From contig NC_068559.1 of the NCBI RefSeq assembly GCF_022201045.2, forward strand, positions 21,955,501-22,019,500: a stretch of DNA of 64,000 bases. The letters are read 5' to 3'. The stretch's first letter is position 1, and each line of letters begins with the position of its first letter. Of this stretch, positions 56,812 through 64,000 are shown piece after piece. The position numbers were made by a program, and so were the translations under genes. The notes beneath the pieces are model-generated. The model did not search any database and was not told the origin of the DNA. It saw only the letters and a program-made list of their open reading frames with translations. The DNA comes from Citrus sinensis (lineage: Eukaryota > Streptophyta > Magnoliopsida > Sapindales > Rutaceae).

Positions 56812-58058
56812 TATCATTGAGACTCTTGCCCTCTCATGGAAAATATACAAATGTATTTGTAAAATGATAATGTATTGTATTATGTTTGTGTATTTTAATT
56901 AATGATAAACAGATGAAATTTTTATTATAATTTGGAATGTTCTCATGAGAAGAAATATGAGCCAACCACATTTAAATATTTGATTGATCTTATGTATTAA
57001 TGGACTTATTTTGACTCAGAGATTATGATCATCTTCCTATTTGAGTTCTCCTAAGTTTTTAAAAATTCAGTCACATGTACATTTATTGATATATAGTATA
57101 TGAATGGGATTTAAGTCTTTTATTTTTTTATTTATCAAGCACCAATTCCACAATTGTATTTTTGCTTAGTCGAAAATCAGGTTATGAGAAAATCTTAATT
57201 TTTTTAAATTAATGTAGCAGCTGTACATGTGATTAATTATTAAAATTTTATATGATGTGGCAATTATAGATTTATTATCATATAAATGAGACTTGAATAT
57301 TGAAATACCTAACATTATTGAGTTTTGAAAACGAAAAATTTAACATAAACTTTTACTTAGCAATTAGTATTTACTATCTATTCATATATTTGAATTTACT
57401 ACTTCCATTCTGCAGCAACTATATCCAAACATACCCTAAATTTGCTTCGGTTTTGTACGCTAGCTTGTTAATACAGGGCACGACCTCATGCAACATTTTA
57501 ACCTAGAAACTTGTGCAATTAAAAACTTACCAAAGCAATTTGCTATATCATAATTTATTCTTTGTAGTGAGTTAGTTGATATCCGGAATTGGATTATTCA
57601 TATTTTCACGTGTGAGTCAATTTAAAAAATAAAACAAATAAATAATAAGGAATCCACCTTTGCCGGTGCCCGATCAAAGATTTTGTTTTGGCATTAAACA
57701 CCCACGAATTAATTTATAGTGTACAGCAATAATTTAGATTGGAAATTCTGATGCGTGTGGACAGAGAATGGAGCCTTCTGAAAAATGTTGTGGGATAAAG
57801 CCAAGAATTATTGGGGGGAAGTCCTGGAAAGTACACGCAATAGCCAATGGATTCAAAAACAGGGGGCTTTTCAACAAGTTGTGACTGAGGGCTCCGGGAA
57901 TTTAATTTCAATTATTTTTCTATCTTGACTAGTAATAGTGCCAAGTGCCAGTTTTTGATCCCGTGATTGCTGATGTCGTGTAGTTTTAAGTATCAAAATT
58001 TTGAGTATCTATCTATAGTGCGAGCGAACGTAGATCATTTTAGAACAATGATTTAAAA
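56812..58058. other. Intergenic: NPH3-gene 3' flank to the left end of the large MULE
   Basis: 1.2 kb of AT-rich sequence. 57650-57910 is less AT-rich and has a 65-codon minus frame (57714-57911) without a recognisable domain. No gene is supported. Confidence 0.5.
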
Positions 58059-58381
58059 GGGAAATTTACAAAAATAACCATTAATATTTTATTATTTTCG
58101 TAATTAACCCTCTCAACTTTTTTCTATCAACATTAGCCAAACACAAGCCTTTCTTCCCAAATTACCCTTCTTTACAGAACAAAACCAACATTGTTTCTCC
58201 CATCTCGCCAAACCAAAAGCAGCTTTTCATTCTTGAATCATAAGCCAACGGCGACCGCAAAAGACAACTGTAAAAGTGATATCCGATCATAATCTATCCA
58301 AATTCAACACAAATCGACGTCACTTACTGGTATGAATTATTTTCTGAACTTACTGAACTGAGTCGGGTGAATCTGAATCTG

Positions 58382-58495
58382 GCGACAGGGTGCCTGTCGC
58401 AGCAAAACTTGGTGCGACAGGTGCCTGTCGCACCAGGTTTGGTGCGACAGGCACCCTGTCGCACCAAGCTTCGGGCGACAGGTTGCCTGTCGCAC
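58382..58495. repeat. Array of four GC-rich palindromes upstream of the MULE transposase
   Basis: Four inverted-repeat units built on GCGACAGG...CCTGTCGC: 58382-58400, 58411-58434 (GGTGCGACAGGTGCCTGTCG then CACC), 58441-58465 and 58475-58493, separated by 6-10 bp. Loops are only 0-4 nt. The array lies between about 80 and 190 bp before the transposase ATG. It is far richer in GC than the sequence on either side. Confidence 0.93.
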
Positions 58496-58573
58496 CCACT
58501 CTTGGAGATTTATTAAAATTGTATTATTTTAATTAGGACTGAAATAAAATATTTTTTTTTAATTTCAGGCTTA

Positions 58574-61210
58574 ATGGATTCAGTTGTACTTGAATTGTGT
58601 TACGATGGTTGGTGGGAGACATTAGAGAATGGCTGTATGGAGTACGTGAATGGTAAAAATCGAGCTTTTTTTGTTGGAAAAAATTACATGTTTGATCAGT
58701 TATTGACAAGAGTATATGAGGTGTTAAAAATAAATCGTAATGACTATAGTATCACAATGAAGACAACTTTGAGGTCTAGTAACACATTATATCGTATATG
58801 TGCAATGCCCATGGATATATGTGATGATGAAATGGTGAGGGTTGTGTTGCATATGGCATCTGACGTAGCTAATTTTGGATGCATTCCTATATTCGTGACC
58901 ACATCACCTCGAGTTCCGAGCGAAGGTATTGAGCCACATGTCGATACAGAAACTTCGTTTAGAGCAAATATGTCTGGCCCCGATAATGATGAAGAGGTGT
59001 TGCCAAGGACAATATCGCTGCAGCAATATTACTCTCCAATCGACGACAATTATGACAACATTGATGATAATGGCGTTACGTTACAGGATGTTGGAGCAAC
59101 GGTATTTCCAATAACAACGTCGTTGGAGCAACAATATTCTCCGTATCACAACAATGATTTTCGGGACAATGATGATTTTCATAATGAGACAGAGGGGGAT
59201 AATGTTTGTGCAGAACCTTCTAATAATACAAGGCGGGGCACTCGTTTCAATAATGATGGTGATGATGGAGGAGCCGGTCCTTCGAATGTTCCGTCGTTTC
59301 AGGATGAGGATGAGTGTGAAGACAATACTCCTATGAATAACAGAGGCAATAGACCTATTCCTTCTATGGTTCGATCGAGAAGGAGAATTGACCCCCTTAC
59401 AAGTCTTGCTCCAACTTTACCTTCGAACATGGTTGCTCCAAGCTTTGTTAGCAGTTGTGACTCAGATGATATCAGCGTGGGTAAGCTATTTGCTGAGAAG
59501 AATGAGCTTATATTACAACTACGCAAGGTGGCCTTTAGAGATAAGTTTGATTTTAAGATTGCACGGTCTACTACGACACGTTTCGAGGCTCACTGTTGTT
59601 CAGAATCATGTAAATGGCGTATTCGAGCAACTAGAAGTTCGAACGAGCAACATGTTCCTTGGGTGGTGAAGAGAATTGATAATGTACACACTTGTCATAA
59701 TGAGGTATTGGTTGATGGACGTCATCAACTAAGGAGCCGGGTTGTCGGTCATATTATCGCAGAAAAATATATTCAAGATAAGAGGATTTATACTCCCAAT
59801 GACATAAGAGCAGATATGCAACAAGAATACGGTGTTCAGTTAACATACCAGCAGGCATATAGGGCGAGAGAAGTTGGTCTTGAAATAGTACGCGGCAACC
59901 CTGCAGAGTCATACAACTTGCTCCCTAAATACTCTCACGTACTAACTACAGCGAATGAGGGTACAGTCACTCACCTCGAGCAGGATGGAGATGGTAATTT
60001 CTTGTACTATTTTGTAGCACTCGGATCTTCCATCAAGGGGTTTATGCAGTACATTCGGCCTGTCATTGCTGTAGATGGTACTCATCTGAAGGGATTATAT
60101 CGTGGAAGCATGTTCGTGGCAACATGTCTTGATGGTAACAATCAATTGTATCCGTTAGCCATTGGGATCATGGATTCAGAAAATAATGATGCTTGGGAAT
60201 GGTTTATGATGAAGTTACATGGAGTGATTGGTGATAGACCTGAGTTGGTAATTATCTCTGATCGATGCACTGCCATAAGGAGAGCCGTTCTTAAAGTATT
60301 TCACAATGCAACTCATGGCGTTTGTTTTTACCACGTCAAAGGTAACATTAAGTCACAATTTAGAATGTCCAAAGCTCTTTGGGATGAATTTGAGCCTGCC
60401 TTTATTAATGCAGCAAAAGCATATGGCCACGAGGAATTTAAGAGACAACTTGAAGGGTTGTGGATGATCCACTCGGGTGCGGCTGATTACCTAGAAAATA
60501 ATGTCGGTACGTGTAATTGGGCAAGGTCTCAGTTTGAAGGTAGGAGGTACAGCATTCTTACCACCAACATCGCGGAGAGTGTTAATGCTTTCATGAGGGA
60601 ACCTCGAAAATTTCCTGTTACTCATCTTGTTGATCACTTCAGGAAAACATTGCAGCAATGGTTTTATGATAGAAAAATTGTGGCTGAATCCATGACTACT
60701 CGGCTAACAACATGGGCGGATGAAATAGTCACTGAGAGGAGAACTATAGCTGAAAGAATGATAGTTCGGCCGGTGTCTCCGCATCGCTTTCAAGTTATAG
60801 GCGGTGGGCTTAAGGAAGGGTTGGTTGACTTGCAAAAGAGAACTTGCTCCTGCAGAGTGTTTCAGCTTGATCAGCTTGTGTGTGCTCATGCAATTGCGGC
60901 GTGTCTAACACACCGGGTGGATTTTATTAACCTTTGCTCGGACTTTTACACTACAGAATCGTTGGCGATGGCTTATGCACAACCAGTGGAGCCAGTTGGT
61001 GATGTGGCTGATTGGGAAGTTCCAGATGAAATTCAGGAGCTGCAGGTATACCCACCAGTTGAGGCACCGCCACCTGGACGTCGTAAAGAGCGCAGAATAC
61101 CCTCGGCTGGCGAGGACGTTGACCGGCGAACTGTAAGATGCGGCCGGTGTCATGAACTTGGCCATAATCGTAAGCGATGTAAGAATCCTATTGCGTCGAC
61201 TCGAAGTTAG
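58574..61210 (+). CDS. MURA-like transposase of a Mutator-like element
   Basis: An intact, intronless 878-codon frame. It should cut and insert the element by a DDE mechanism in the nucleus. Order: N-terminal region with a PB1-like fold seen in many MULE proteins (MDSVVLELCYDGWWETLENG), acidic low-complexity linker, MuDR DNA-binding domain (KLFAEKNELILQLRKVAFRD; WVVKRIDNVHTCHNE), MULE transposase domain, SWIM zinc finger C758/C760/C770/H772 (CSCRVFQLDQLVCAH), and a CCHC knuckle at 856-869 (CGRCHELGHNRKRC). Candidate catalytic residues are D501 (AVDGTHL), D563 (IISDRC) and E668 (NIAESVN); the Glu is the least certain. No stop or frameshift is present. The start is the first ATG, 79 bp after the palindrome array. 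Confidence 0.95.
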   Translation: MDSVVLELCYDGWWETLENGCMEYVNGKNRAFFVGKNYMFDQLLTRVYEVLKINRNDYSITMKTTLRSSNTLYRICAMPMDICDDEMVRVVLHMASDVANFGCIPIFVTTSPRVPSEGIEPHVDTETSFRANMSGPDNDEEVLPRTISLQQYYSPIDDNYDNIDDNGVTLQDVGATVFPITTSLEQQYSPYHNNDFRDNDDFHNETEGDNVCAEPSNNTRRGTRFNNDGDDGGAGPSNVPSFQDEDECEDNTPMNNRGNRPIPSMVRSRRRIDPLTSLAPTLPSNMVAPSFVSSCDSDDISVGKLFAEKNELILQLRKVAFRDKFDFKIARSTTTRFEAHCCSESCKWRIRATRSSNEQHVPWVVKRIDNVHTCHNEVLVDGRHQLRSRVVGHIIAEKYIQDKRIYTPNDIRADMQQEYGVQLTYQQAYRAREVGLEIVRGNPAESYNLLPKYSHVLTTANEGTVTHLEQDGDGNFLYYFVALGSSIKGFMQYIRPVIAVDGTHLKGLYRGSMFVATCLDGNNQLYPLAIGIMDSENNDAWEWFMMKLHGVIGDRPELVIISDRCTAIRRAVLKVFHNATHGVCFYHVKGNIKSQFRMSKALWDEFEPAFINAAKAYGHEEFKRQLEGLWMIHSGAADYLENNVGTCNWARSQFEGRRYSILTTNIAESVNAFMREPRKFPVTHLVDHFRKTLQQWFYDRKIVAESMTTRLTTWADEIVTERRTIAERMIVRPVSPHRFQVIGGGLKEGLVDLQKRTCSCRVFQLDQLVCAHAIAACLTHRVDFINLCSDFYTTESLAMAYAQPVEPVGDVADWEVPDEIQELQVYPPVEAPPPGRRKERRIPSAGEDVDRRTVRCGRCHELGHNRKRCKNPIASTRS

Positions 61211-61398
61211 TTGTATTTTGTGTGTTATTCGTTGGTTAAAACTGTTATTGTTTTTTGTATTTCGTTGGTTAAAATTGTTATTATTCATAAAACTTTATTT
61301 TATTTTAAAGTTCAAAATGTGAGGTATTAAAATTATATAAAATTAAGTGCGGAAATTAAAAAAAATGTAAATTTCAACATTGAAATTACTACATAGGT
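61211..61398. other. Short intergenic spacer between convergent MULE genes
   Basis: 188 AT-rich bp between the transposase and protease stop codons. It contains a repeated TTCGTTGGTTAAAA[C/T]TGTTATT (61229 and 61261 areas). Both transcripts must end here or overlap. Confidence 0.6.
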
Positions 61399-64000
61399 CT
61401 ACAATATAATATCGTCATTAAATATATCAACCGCAATCTTCTTTCTAAAGTACTCGACATGACTAGCGTTAAACTCCAACCTAAGCCCGAACATTAAATA
61501 CATCGTAACCATCAATACAAAAACACCGCAATCGCCAGTTCCAGGCTCTTGTTGTGGCGCGCTCTTAACTGCGATAACTTTCCACGGGTCTTCACTCCGC
61601 AACTCAGGTCGTATATTGTAGAAGCCAACATATTCCAACCAGCGAGGGAATATAACTTCAAGTGGCTTGAATTTCAACTTGTACCTTTTGTCGTCGCGAA
61701 ATGTGAGTAATGAGTCATAAATCCAGACTTTATTTTTCCGAAAGTCAACTCGTGCTAGTACCCAATGCGCGCCGTCCAAGTTAACAGGGATGAGTAACTG
61801 CATATAAAAATTTAAAAACATGTTCGTTATATATGAAATTGAAATACAACAAAGAAAAAACAACTCCTCGAATATTTTCATTATAGAACATGTGAAATGT
61901 AATAAAATACATACCATATCGACATCCGTCATTGATTTTGACATTGTGTGCTGTCGCCCACACAGATAACTATTCAAGCGGTCGTCGAATACCATTGAAT
62001 CGACTGCACAATTCCCGTTATTCCATAACTGATTCAAGAACACCTAGTACATAGATAACCAAGAAATGCATAAATTAATTAAACTTAAAGGCAATAATTA
62101 AAGAAATTAAATAGTATTTGTAAGTTTTGTCGGCACGTTACCCAAAAAAATGTGTCCGTATGTGTGACACGTTGGAGTAAGGCATTTGGATACTGCCGTT
62201 GTTTCCCGCTAATCAAGCGGAGATACTCGTGAATATGCTGTAGAGAAACAGAAATATTACGATTTAAAAAAAAATTATACACAAATACACAACAGTATAC
62301 ACCACGAGGAAAATATAAATACCTCATCGCCTAGCCATCCCATCGAAGCTGTCCCCAAAATTATTTGAAAGAATGACCGCGGGTGCTGGACGTTCCGGCG
62401 GACTCTGATATCACCAGTGAACCATCGATCAAACTCAGCAAACCAACTAGAGTCCTCCAATCCTCTCAGCGGATTTACATCCACACTCGTACTCATGTCA
62501 ATCGCATGCTCCATGATTTGGGGTCGAGGTAACCTCCGGACGTTCTGTCCTCGCCTGACCGGAGGAATCATGTAAGGACTGTTATAAACATACGACGGTA
62601 TGTACGCGCGGCCGAACTTACTAACGCCCGGAGGCACCTCTGTGAACACCTGCACGCTCTCCCCACTAACATCCCCGTAGAAACTAACCAATGACGTGGG
62701 CGTAGACAAATTTTCATTGCCCACGTCAGTATACACTCCATAGTCATCCGGGGCCTGTACAATCGCCAAAAAGAACATATTAAATAATTATCAAATTAAA
62801 AGTTAAACGAACATAATTATTTAATATAAATTAGCTTACCGCATACGAGCGTGCAGTGGGAGAATCCTTATTTGGACGTTTAGAAAATGTGTCGATGAAG
62901 CCAACAACGGTTTCTTTAAAATCTTTTAATTCTGACTTTATTTCATACACGTTACGATCAATCTTATCCAGCCGTCGTCGTACGTAATCATTAAACTGCT
63001 TTGTCCTCGACTAATACAAAAGAAAAAAATAAAACTTTAGAATAACAATAAAAAAATAATAACAACCAAAGTGAAAAATATCGTATATTATTTATAACCT
63101 CAGAATCCCGTGCGTCATCAGAGTTGTCTGTTTGCTGCTGGTCATCAACAGCCACCTCATCCTCAAAAGTGTCATGACGCTGCTCAAAAGCGTCATGACG
63201 CTGCTCAAAAGCGTCATGACGCTGCTCAAAAGTGTCATGACGCTGCTCTGGTATTGGGTTTGGTATGTCGTCATGATCGTCATGCTCGTCCGATTGTCTT
63301 GTAACCGACGGCATCGCGTTGATTGAGGGTTGGTGCTGTATAAAGTATCATTTAAAATTACTAAATGAAAAGTCAAAAATTTCGATAAAAAAATTTTTTG
63401 TACTTACAGTATACCGACCTTATGAACCCAGTCTGGAATGCTTGGCAAGTAATCCTTCACAGAGAGCCAATATTTTCTGCTACTCTCCTTTGAATTTGGC
63501 TCAAGAGTTTGTAAAACATTCGTCTGCCATAAATTTAATTGAAAAATTTAAGTAAGTAAACCCAACTTAAATTTAGTAAAGTTAAAAAAATAAGTAATAC
63601 ATATTACTTACAAGACGAGATTCGTCGTTGAAGAACGAATAAACCTCCGCAAAGTTGATTCTCGAAGACGCCATAGGCTTCCATTGCAGAATGCGGGGAA
63701 TCTTACTCTTCGTTTTGACGACCCATGTTGATGGTAACCCTCCGATTGCTTCATAAATCCAAGCCTACAACAACCAAAGTGAAAAATCAAATAAAACAAC
63801 TATCAAATATTTAATACTATAAAACTTATTAATAAACAAAAAAAAGCACCTGCACCCCAGACGTAAATCCGTAAAGATTGTATTTTTCAATATTATGATC
63901 TGGATTTTTCAACCGAGTCTTCTTAAATTTCTCGTCTTTTTCGAACAGTGCATTGTCAAGACTCTCATAAATCATTTCCCACGACAATAGACCCCATGGA
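61399..64000 (-). CDS. DUF1985 / Ulp1-like cysteine protease carried by the MULE (partial, N-terminus outside)
   Basis: Ulp1 (SENP) proteases process or remove SUMO; in MULEs the role is unknown. Nine exons fit on the minus strand: 64000-63850, 63764-63612, 63523-63419, 63335-63099, 63010-62840, 62754-62323, 62237-62142, 62043-61915, 61797-61399, about 623 visible residues. The first part matches DUF1985 (YNLYGFTSGVQ|AWIYEAIGG). A low-complexity stretch with EQRHD(A/T)F repeats follows. The C-terminal C48 peptidase has the His (LDGAHWVLARVDF), Asp (KVWIYDSLL), Gln (SAPQQEPGTGD) and Cys (GDCGVFVLM) expected of the active site. Every internal exon is a multiple of three, and all introns are phase 0. 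It converges with the transposase; stops are 188 bp apart. Confidence 0.88.
63162..63246 (-). repeat. 21-bp tandem repeat, four copies, inside a protease exon
   Basis: The unit CTCAAAAG[C/T]GTCATGACGCTG (plus strand) repeats four times in frame and encodes EQRHDAF or EQRHDTF. It lies in the exon 63335-63099, in the linker between DUF1985 and the protease domain. GCGTCATGACGC within the unit is itself palindromic. Confidence 0.93.

Follow-up and report, generated by a model that had tools for sequence, protein, structure and literature searches.

Close to the right-hand edge of a 64,000-nucleotide stretch of sweet orange (Citrus sinensis) DNA, contig NC_068559.1 positions 21,955,501 to 22,019,500 (C4:21955501-22019500, hereafter the window), lies a Mutator-like element (MULE) with two convergent genes. 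Positions are given in window coordinates, those called window-equivalent running past the right edge of the window. The flanking DNA places the right end of the element at C4:22020849, 1,349 bp past that edge, and its full extent is 7,291 bp, from 58059 to window-equivalent 65349 (C4:22013559-22020849; copy L012 in our comparisons). Its terminal sequences are GGGAAATTTACA and TGTAAATTTCCC, and its terminal inverted repeats (TIRs), which in MULEs may be long or degenerate, are of the degenerate type, some 157 bp in length and about 72% identical between the two ends by blastn. Gene 1 encodes a MuDR-type transposase of 878 amino acids in a single open frame. Gene 2 is read from the minus strand, starting at window-equivalent 64608 and ending at 61399, and encodes a protein of 826 amino acids in nine exons that stay in frame through eight introns, all phase 0 with GT-AG borders, the portion from 64000 to 64608 being read beyond the window. 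The original prediction, drawn from the letters of the window, had described an intact MULE carrying an Ulp1-type protease gene, with an 878-codon transposase free of stops and frameshifts, a convergent protease gene in frame over eight introns and a matching inverted repeat to be sought on the right; each of these expectations was borne out, including in the part of gene 2 that had not been visible. The element is a complete, recently amplified two-gene MULE.

As expected of a MULE, gene 1 specifies a MULE/MuDR transposase with a DDE triad. Pfam recognises MULE, MuDR DNA-binding, Transposase_mut and SWIM domains, and the protein retains D501, D563 and E668, the pair at 584/587, C758/C760/C770/H772 and the residues at 856/859/864/869, which we take to be the DDE triad, the CxxH motif, the SWIM finger and the CCHC knuckle, respectively; the DDE candidates, SWIM finger and CCHC knuckle had all been predicted to be kept. 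A search of the PDB for relatives of the transposase returned only one chance match (E 0.85). One replacement, H157D, is private to this copy, all 23 of the other aligned copies having histidine. Since the family has conserved GGGAAATTTACA ends together with 9-bp target duplications, these ends are presumably what the transposase acts on.

The gene 2 product carries DUF1985 at residues 76-215 (E 1.2e-18; 67.8 bits, cut-off 35.1) and Peptidase_C48 at residues 615-821 (E 3.9e-29). The nearest solved structure to the protease is SENP1 (E 1.8e-12), with whose catalytic His, Asp, Gln and Cys the residues H705, D722, Q776/Q777 and C784 line up; the full set expected of an active SUMO protease is in place, as had been proposed. 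An Ulp1 (C48) second gene in reverse orientation to the transposase is the arrangement of Ulp1-MULEs and KIU, and a DUF1985 in the second protein is a mark of VANC-type systems. From its predicted sequence, the product is best described as a KIU/VANC-like protein made up of DUF1985, a linker and an Ulp1-type SUMO-protease domain. D306N is private to this copy, the 15 others all having aspartate. The original prediction had recognised the protease of the second gene; it had overlooked the DUF1985, most of which is encoded past the window edge, as well as the palindromic subterminal arrays described below, and together these two features point to a role for that gene. Exon 4, which encodes the variable linker, differs in length among 25 copies (the best 25 candidates of a DNA search, on which all copy comparisons are based), always by multiples of three. 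It holds an in-frame tandem repeat whose unit has a palindromic core and whose number differs between copies.

Each gene has, upstream of its ATG, a predicted leader intron that contains an array of head-to-head half-sites, GGTGCGACAG/CTGTCGCACC. The donors and acceptors of these predicted introns were read by eye; on the transposase side a comparable donor and acceptor were found in the same way in L029 and L044. Each array unit sets the half-site TTGGTGCGACAGG opposite its reverse complement over a short spacer, and the two arrays are found some 320-440 bp and 500-660 bp inward from the element ends. With up to one mismatch allowed, the element has 20 half-site cores, whereas 100 first-order Markov sequences average 3.9 and reach at most 10; the remaining 58 kb of the window has 27. 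Single-strand folding of the two arrays goes far past that of shuffled sequences (z -12.8 and -10.3). Cores are present at the left end of all 25 copies (3-22 each, some counts taking in one coding match) and at the right end of all 20 copies in which that end is readable (1-21 each), the six older-group copies among the latter having just 1-4. Complete half-site pairs occur at the left end of 25/25 copies and at 16 of the 20 readable right ends.

Between the centres of neighbouring pairs the distance is 30-34 bp in 69 of the 72 intervals at the left ends and 47 of the 49 at the right ends, close to three turns of DNA. The inner spacers of the palindromes measure 4-5 bp on the left and 3-8 bp on the right, the half-site being identical at both ends; in this comparison the eight-base seed was fixed by the search, and the flanking TTGG and G were free. 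Array copy number turns over fast. The motif density and helical periodicity of VANC targets in eudicots are reportedly treated by Sasaki and colleagues (2022, EMBO J). Leaving that study aside, arrays such as these are not described in the available parts of the literature on Ulp1/KI MULEs, VANC and citrus MULEs.

Table 1. Coordinates of the features of the element, left to right
Feature	Position	Strand	Basis
Left flank at the expected target-duplication site, GATTTAAAA; right flank TTTAAAATT	58050..58058	.	flank comparison
Left TIR, degenerate, starts GGGAAATTTACA, ~72% identical to right TIR	58059..58214	+	blastn
Predicted transposase leader intron, donor G/GTATGA, acceptor TTTCAG/G; holds left array	58330..58568	+	by eye
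Left palindromic array: four head-to-head half-site pairs, core TGCGACAG/CTGTCGCA, period ~31 bp	58381..58497	.	
MuDR-type transposase, 878 aa, one open frame	58574..61210	+	translation and Pfam
Gene 2 exon 9, catalytic His/Asp/Gln/Cys	61399..61797	-	
Gene 2 exon 8	61915..62043	-	
Gene 2 exon 7	62142..62237	-	
Gene 2 exon 6	62323..62754	-	
Gene 2 exon 5	62840..63010	-	
Gene 2 exon 4, variable linker	63099..63335	-	
21-bp in-frame tandem repeat (CTCAAAAGCGTCATGACGCTG), 4.1 copies, within exon 4	63162..63248	-	
Gene 2 exon 3	63419..63523	-	
Gene 2 exon 2	63612..63764	-	
Gene 2 exon 1, carries DUF1985	63850..64608 (63850..64000 inside window)	-	
Right palindromic array	window-equivalent ~64690-64860, outside window		
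Right TIR	window-equivalent 65192-65349, outside window		blastn

The genome holds at least 40 left and at least 40 right ends of this type, more than the copies compared, so the family is larger than 25. The transposase is open over its full length in 15/25 copies, gene 2 is open and spliced in 8/25 (copies without a fetched right end may score as broken merely through being cut), and both genes are open in six: the focal copy, L015, L017, L023, L029 and L030. L017 has lost one SWIM cysteine, and in L022, whose transposase is open, the second catalytic Asp is missing. In a tree of the 25 transposase sequences, with a rough bootstrap and 13 of 22 inner branches poorly supported, the copies fall into an older group, in which broken frames are common, a young group A, whose youngest clade includes the focal copy, and clade B, which stands apart. 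Sub-lineage B comprises L029, L030 and L034+L039, on C9, C8 and C3, with nearly identical transposases and large arrays; its synonymous sites are about 10% diverged from those of the focal group, and it is a second recently amplified lineage.

Comparison of the focal copy (A) with L030 (B) gave, for the transposase, 0.105 synonymous (pS) and 0.014 nonsynonymous (pN) differences per site, a pN/pS of 0.13 that falls to 0.02 in the catalytic core. For gene 2 the ratio was 0.25, with 0.21 in DUF1985, 0.17 in C48 and 0.51 in the linker. These low ratios show that purifying selection maintained both genes, the protease core included, on the lineages that connect A with B, a result that holds for the time before the last burst. 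Introns of the same two copies are 8.6% diverged, close to the synonymous divergence, which supports the exon model. Higher ratios were seen between L027 and L028, both of the older group (0.71), and for the transposase inside young group A, where few changes separate the focal copy from its closest relatives (for example 0.28-0.83). The focal copy and L023 differ by five replacements in the transposase and four in gene 2; they differ at no synonymous site in either gene, a sign of the recent amplification of the family.

MULEs typically make target duplications of 8-11 bp, and the family does so, the focal copy being an exception. Both ends were read in 20 of the 25 copies, and with L030 stopping three bases past its right end 19 could be scored: sixteen have 9/9 matches and one 8/9 (17/19 together), against 3/9 in the focal copy and 2/9 in L013. 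The 9-bp copy of positions 58050-58058 that had been predicted is thus missing at the right end, the one expectation that failed; the flanks, GATTTAAAA before GGG on the left and TTTAAAATT after CCC on the right, agree in register at three of nine positions. Both flanks contain TTTAAAA (7 bp), flush with both ends, and a 7-bp or trimmed duplication is possible. No recombination partner was seen when the focal flanks were compared by eye with those of the copies, five of which lack a right flank, and no empty-site search was made. L013 (C8:25137970-25145236), a member of the young clade, also lacks a duplication (TATATAATT and CTGAACTTC at its two ends), and its transposase has a stop after 795 residues.

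Published systems offer several points of comparison, for which we draw on the available parts of the papers cited except where the text of a paper is named. The KAONASHI (KI) MULEs and KIU of Arabidopsis, and the Ulp1-MULEs of melon, rice and grapevine, have the same combination of a MuDR-type transposase with a reverse Ulp1-domain gene (PMC2528002, PMC13317346). KI-MULEs are termed non-TIR; the TIRs found here are degenerate and may count as non-TIR by the definition in PMC4334395, which leaves no firm difference. The available accounts of KI/Ulp1-MULEs make no mention of palindromic arrays in both leader introns, as present here (PMC2528002, PMC13317346), and the likeness of gene 2 to Arabidopsis KIU rests on shared domains. 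VANC proteins contain DUF1985. They bind to tandemly repeated short motifs in noncoding DNA and bring about a loss of DNA methylation; the motif bound is not the same for related VANCs, and the target repeats of related elements likewise differ (PMC5735166, PMC10398659). KIU, the VANC genes that carry Ulp1, are reported in a review to act likewise on their own elements, and the same review calls the role of the Ulp1 domain unknown (PMC13317346). In VANDAL21 (Hiun) and VANDAL6, as in the present element, DUF1985 is found in the second gene, and family-specific short noncoding repeat motifs go with a variable, repeat-bearing region of the protein (PMC5735166). The VANC21 and VANC6 motifs are YAGTATTAY and AGTTGTCC/AGTTGTAC, respectively, whereas here TTGGTGCGACAG half-sites stand in head-to-head pairs; the word Ulp1 is absent from the text of PMC5735166, whereas gene 2 has an Ulp1 domain. 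Within citrus, CitMule and three MULEs behind somatic insertions in sweet orange are MULEs like the focal element (PMC4334395, PMC9832951), and CitMule has AT-rich 9-bp targets and some dissimilar flanks (PMC4334395). By description CitMule is set apart, being 6,926 bp long with a FAR1-domain transposase of 795-805 amino acids and no occurrence of the word protease in the text of PMC4334395, as is one sweet orange MULE insert of 5,086 bp.

Overall, we consider that the element is a KIU/VANC-type MULE whose DUF1985-Ulp1 protein probably binds the half-site arrays to undo silencing, and we give this reading a probability of about 0.6. Under the scheme we propose, in which array binding, demethylation, SUMO cleavage and present mobility are what we infer from sequence comparison, the transposase would work on the GGGAAATTTACA ends, while the gene 2 protein would bind the half-sites arrayed in the two leader introns. 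Once bound, it would relieve DNA methylation or related silent chromatin in the manner of Arabidopsis VANC, and the relieved silencing would permit transcription of the transposase and of gene 2 itself. The protease domain may add local removal of SUMO from silencing proteins, which is the least supported step. A more detailed version would have the DUF1985 protein tethered, perhaps as dimers, to palindromic half-sites about three turns apart in both leader introns, bringing a working SUMO protease to chromatin, with sister lineages made independent by a half-site switch from GGTGCGACAG to GTGAGACAGG; this we hold only tentatively, well short of an even chance. Gene 2 has been kept by selection, has a VANC-type DUF1985 and is accompanied by a defined candidate target motif, which varies from one related family to another, so that what the Ulp1 domain does can be tested directly outside Arabidopsis.

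A search of the genome with the DUF1985 exon returned at least 151 scored matches, with identities from 100% down to 56%, and leader regions were read in eight cases (L042-L049), seven from gene-2 relatives and one from a transposase side. Six of these eight fold beyond shuffles (z -6 to -22). By a stricter measure, in which 8-mers facing their own complement within 12 bases are compared with shuffles, pairs are far in excess in the two focal arrays (20 and 23), L044 (24) and L047 (20), and slightly so in L049 (3; shuffle maximum 1); among control pieces of the window 7/30 have any such pair, with a maximum of 5. The exact 12-mer TTGGTGCGACAG or its complement is present in L042, L043 and L048, and in L042 it recurs upstream of gene 2 in a family only about 62% identical in the DUF1985 exon. 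L047 has TTTGTGCGACAG and TTTGTGCGACGG, and L049 has TTTGTGCGACGG. The 62%-identity element has the variant GTGAGACAGG on its transposase side (L044); this related lineage has switched motif variant there. Ends like GGGAAATTTACA are retained in L044, L045 and L046. Family-specific short motif repeats in noncoding regions, a further mark of VANC-type systems, are thus present with exceptions, L045 and L046 being without an array by folding.

Genome-wide, the palindrome GGTGCGACAG-N2-12-CTGTCGCACC occurs 252 times and GTGAGACAGG-N2-6-CCTGTCTCAC 87 times, with none for the reversed control of the former or the control of the latter, and a third pattern, GTGCGACGGG-N2-6-CCCGTCGCAC, is found at six places only. 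Linkage to genes was scored for the first 50 listed occurrences of each motif, with orientation judged by eye. Ten of 30 focal-motif clusters lie upstream of a listed transposase start, in every case A-type, and five upstream of a DUF1985 exon. Of the 20 variant clusters, 16 lie upstream of a listed transposase start (ten with letters shown, all C-type, and six without letters), one is near a DUF1985 exon outside the leader position and three are by neither. Among the starts listed with letters, the variant stands by 10/13 C-type against 0/52 A-type (focal-type) transposases, and it is clearly tied to C-type elements.

The start list behind these counts holds 100 of 220 starts, all exact matches, so the numbers of clusters by neither gene are upper bounds; three such focal clusters (C1:11305374, C1:14412182 and C2:11909168) fall within a stretch made up of a TIR and the first array unit. 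That combination occurs at 56 places in the genome, and 16 of 39 such ends are without a listed transposase start. Taking an array end without a transposase start for a derivative was rejected: L018 (C5:22891503), in which the transposase is open, is among the 16, and with an exact-match list 16/39 is no count of derivatives. Two arrays, of seven and six exact focal-type palindromes, at C1:5201838-5202050 and C1:21511840-21512084, respectively, are not close to any listed transposase start or DUF1985 exon; they could be derivatives, mismatched relatives or host-side targets. At about 475-490 of L049 a MULE right end, TGTAAATTCCCC, adjoins part of a leader array that L047 also has, which looks like an insertion of one element into the array of another.

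Several results weigh against the KIU/VANC reading. L045 and L046 show no array by folding (z -0.9 and 0.3), both deriving from rows in which the DUF1985 exon carries a stop, and by the stricter measure pairs do not exceed shuffles in L042 (11; maximum 11), L043 (0) or L048 (3; maximum 5). Four decayed copies of the focal family (L026, L027, L028 and L035+L038) have no complete right-end pair. The main difficulty comes from the 62%-identity element, which has GTGAGACAGG on its transposase side and other palindromes together with TTGGTGCGACAG on its gene-2 side, and with two array types in one element a single reader with a single motif is too simple. Fifteen of the 30 listed focal-motif clusters have no listed gene start nearby, and 3/13 C-type starts are without a variant palindrome. 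The exact focal palindrome stands by 10/26 A-type and 0/2 C-type starts in the listed stretch, which holds just two C-type starts, so that its exclusiveness is weakly tested.

Alternatively, it might be the transposase that binds the arrays, as subterminal sites that cutting requires in cis, and the protease protein would then have nothing to do with them. Subterminal repeats of En/Spm are binding sites for TNPA, and the half-sites do lie near both ends of the compared copies and, as first array units, accompany the TIR at the 56 places mentioned above. We nevertheless think this unlikely: in L044, L045 and L046 the array motif changes while the ends stay GGGAAATTTACA-like, the focal arrays sit hundreds of base pairs inside the ends in predicted leader introns, and targets of this kind are already on record for DUF1985 proteins of Arabidopsis in the available parts of PMC5735166. 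A reading of the arrays as functionless GC-rich minisatellites, passive and hypermutable, seems to us improbable. The arrays share a location at both ends and a common half-site despite differing spacers, the exact 12-mer is retained at 62% protein identity, and the motif variant goes with the transposase type, although unit number does vary widely, slippage can expand palindromic repeats and two of the eight related leaders have no array.

A different doubt concerns the focal copy itself, which may be inert despite its open frames, either silenced or a product of ectopic recombination or repair, with the activity of the family residing in other copies. We regard this as a real possibility, not far below an even chance. 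Its missing 9-bp duplication, where nearly all scorable copies have one, and its private missense changes H157D and D306N would fit, and a citrus MULE insertion tied to a deletion has dissimilar flanks in the available part of PMC4334395. The flush TTTAAAA, on the other hand, fits a duplication that was short or has been trimmed, none of the listed motif residues has been lost, and the copy belongs to the youngest clade with zero synonymous difference to L023. The suggestion that the element is possibly active accordingly gains from recent amplification and purifying selection and loses from the absent duplication and one private missense change per protein, and its autonomy, also proposed, is plausible with these reservations.

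Elsewhere in the genome, MULE-domain matches with identical scores and 737-amino-acid open frames at C3:6791747, C3:46306594, C8:13628879 and C8:28580079 are perhaps another recently amplified MULE family.

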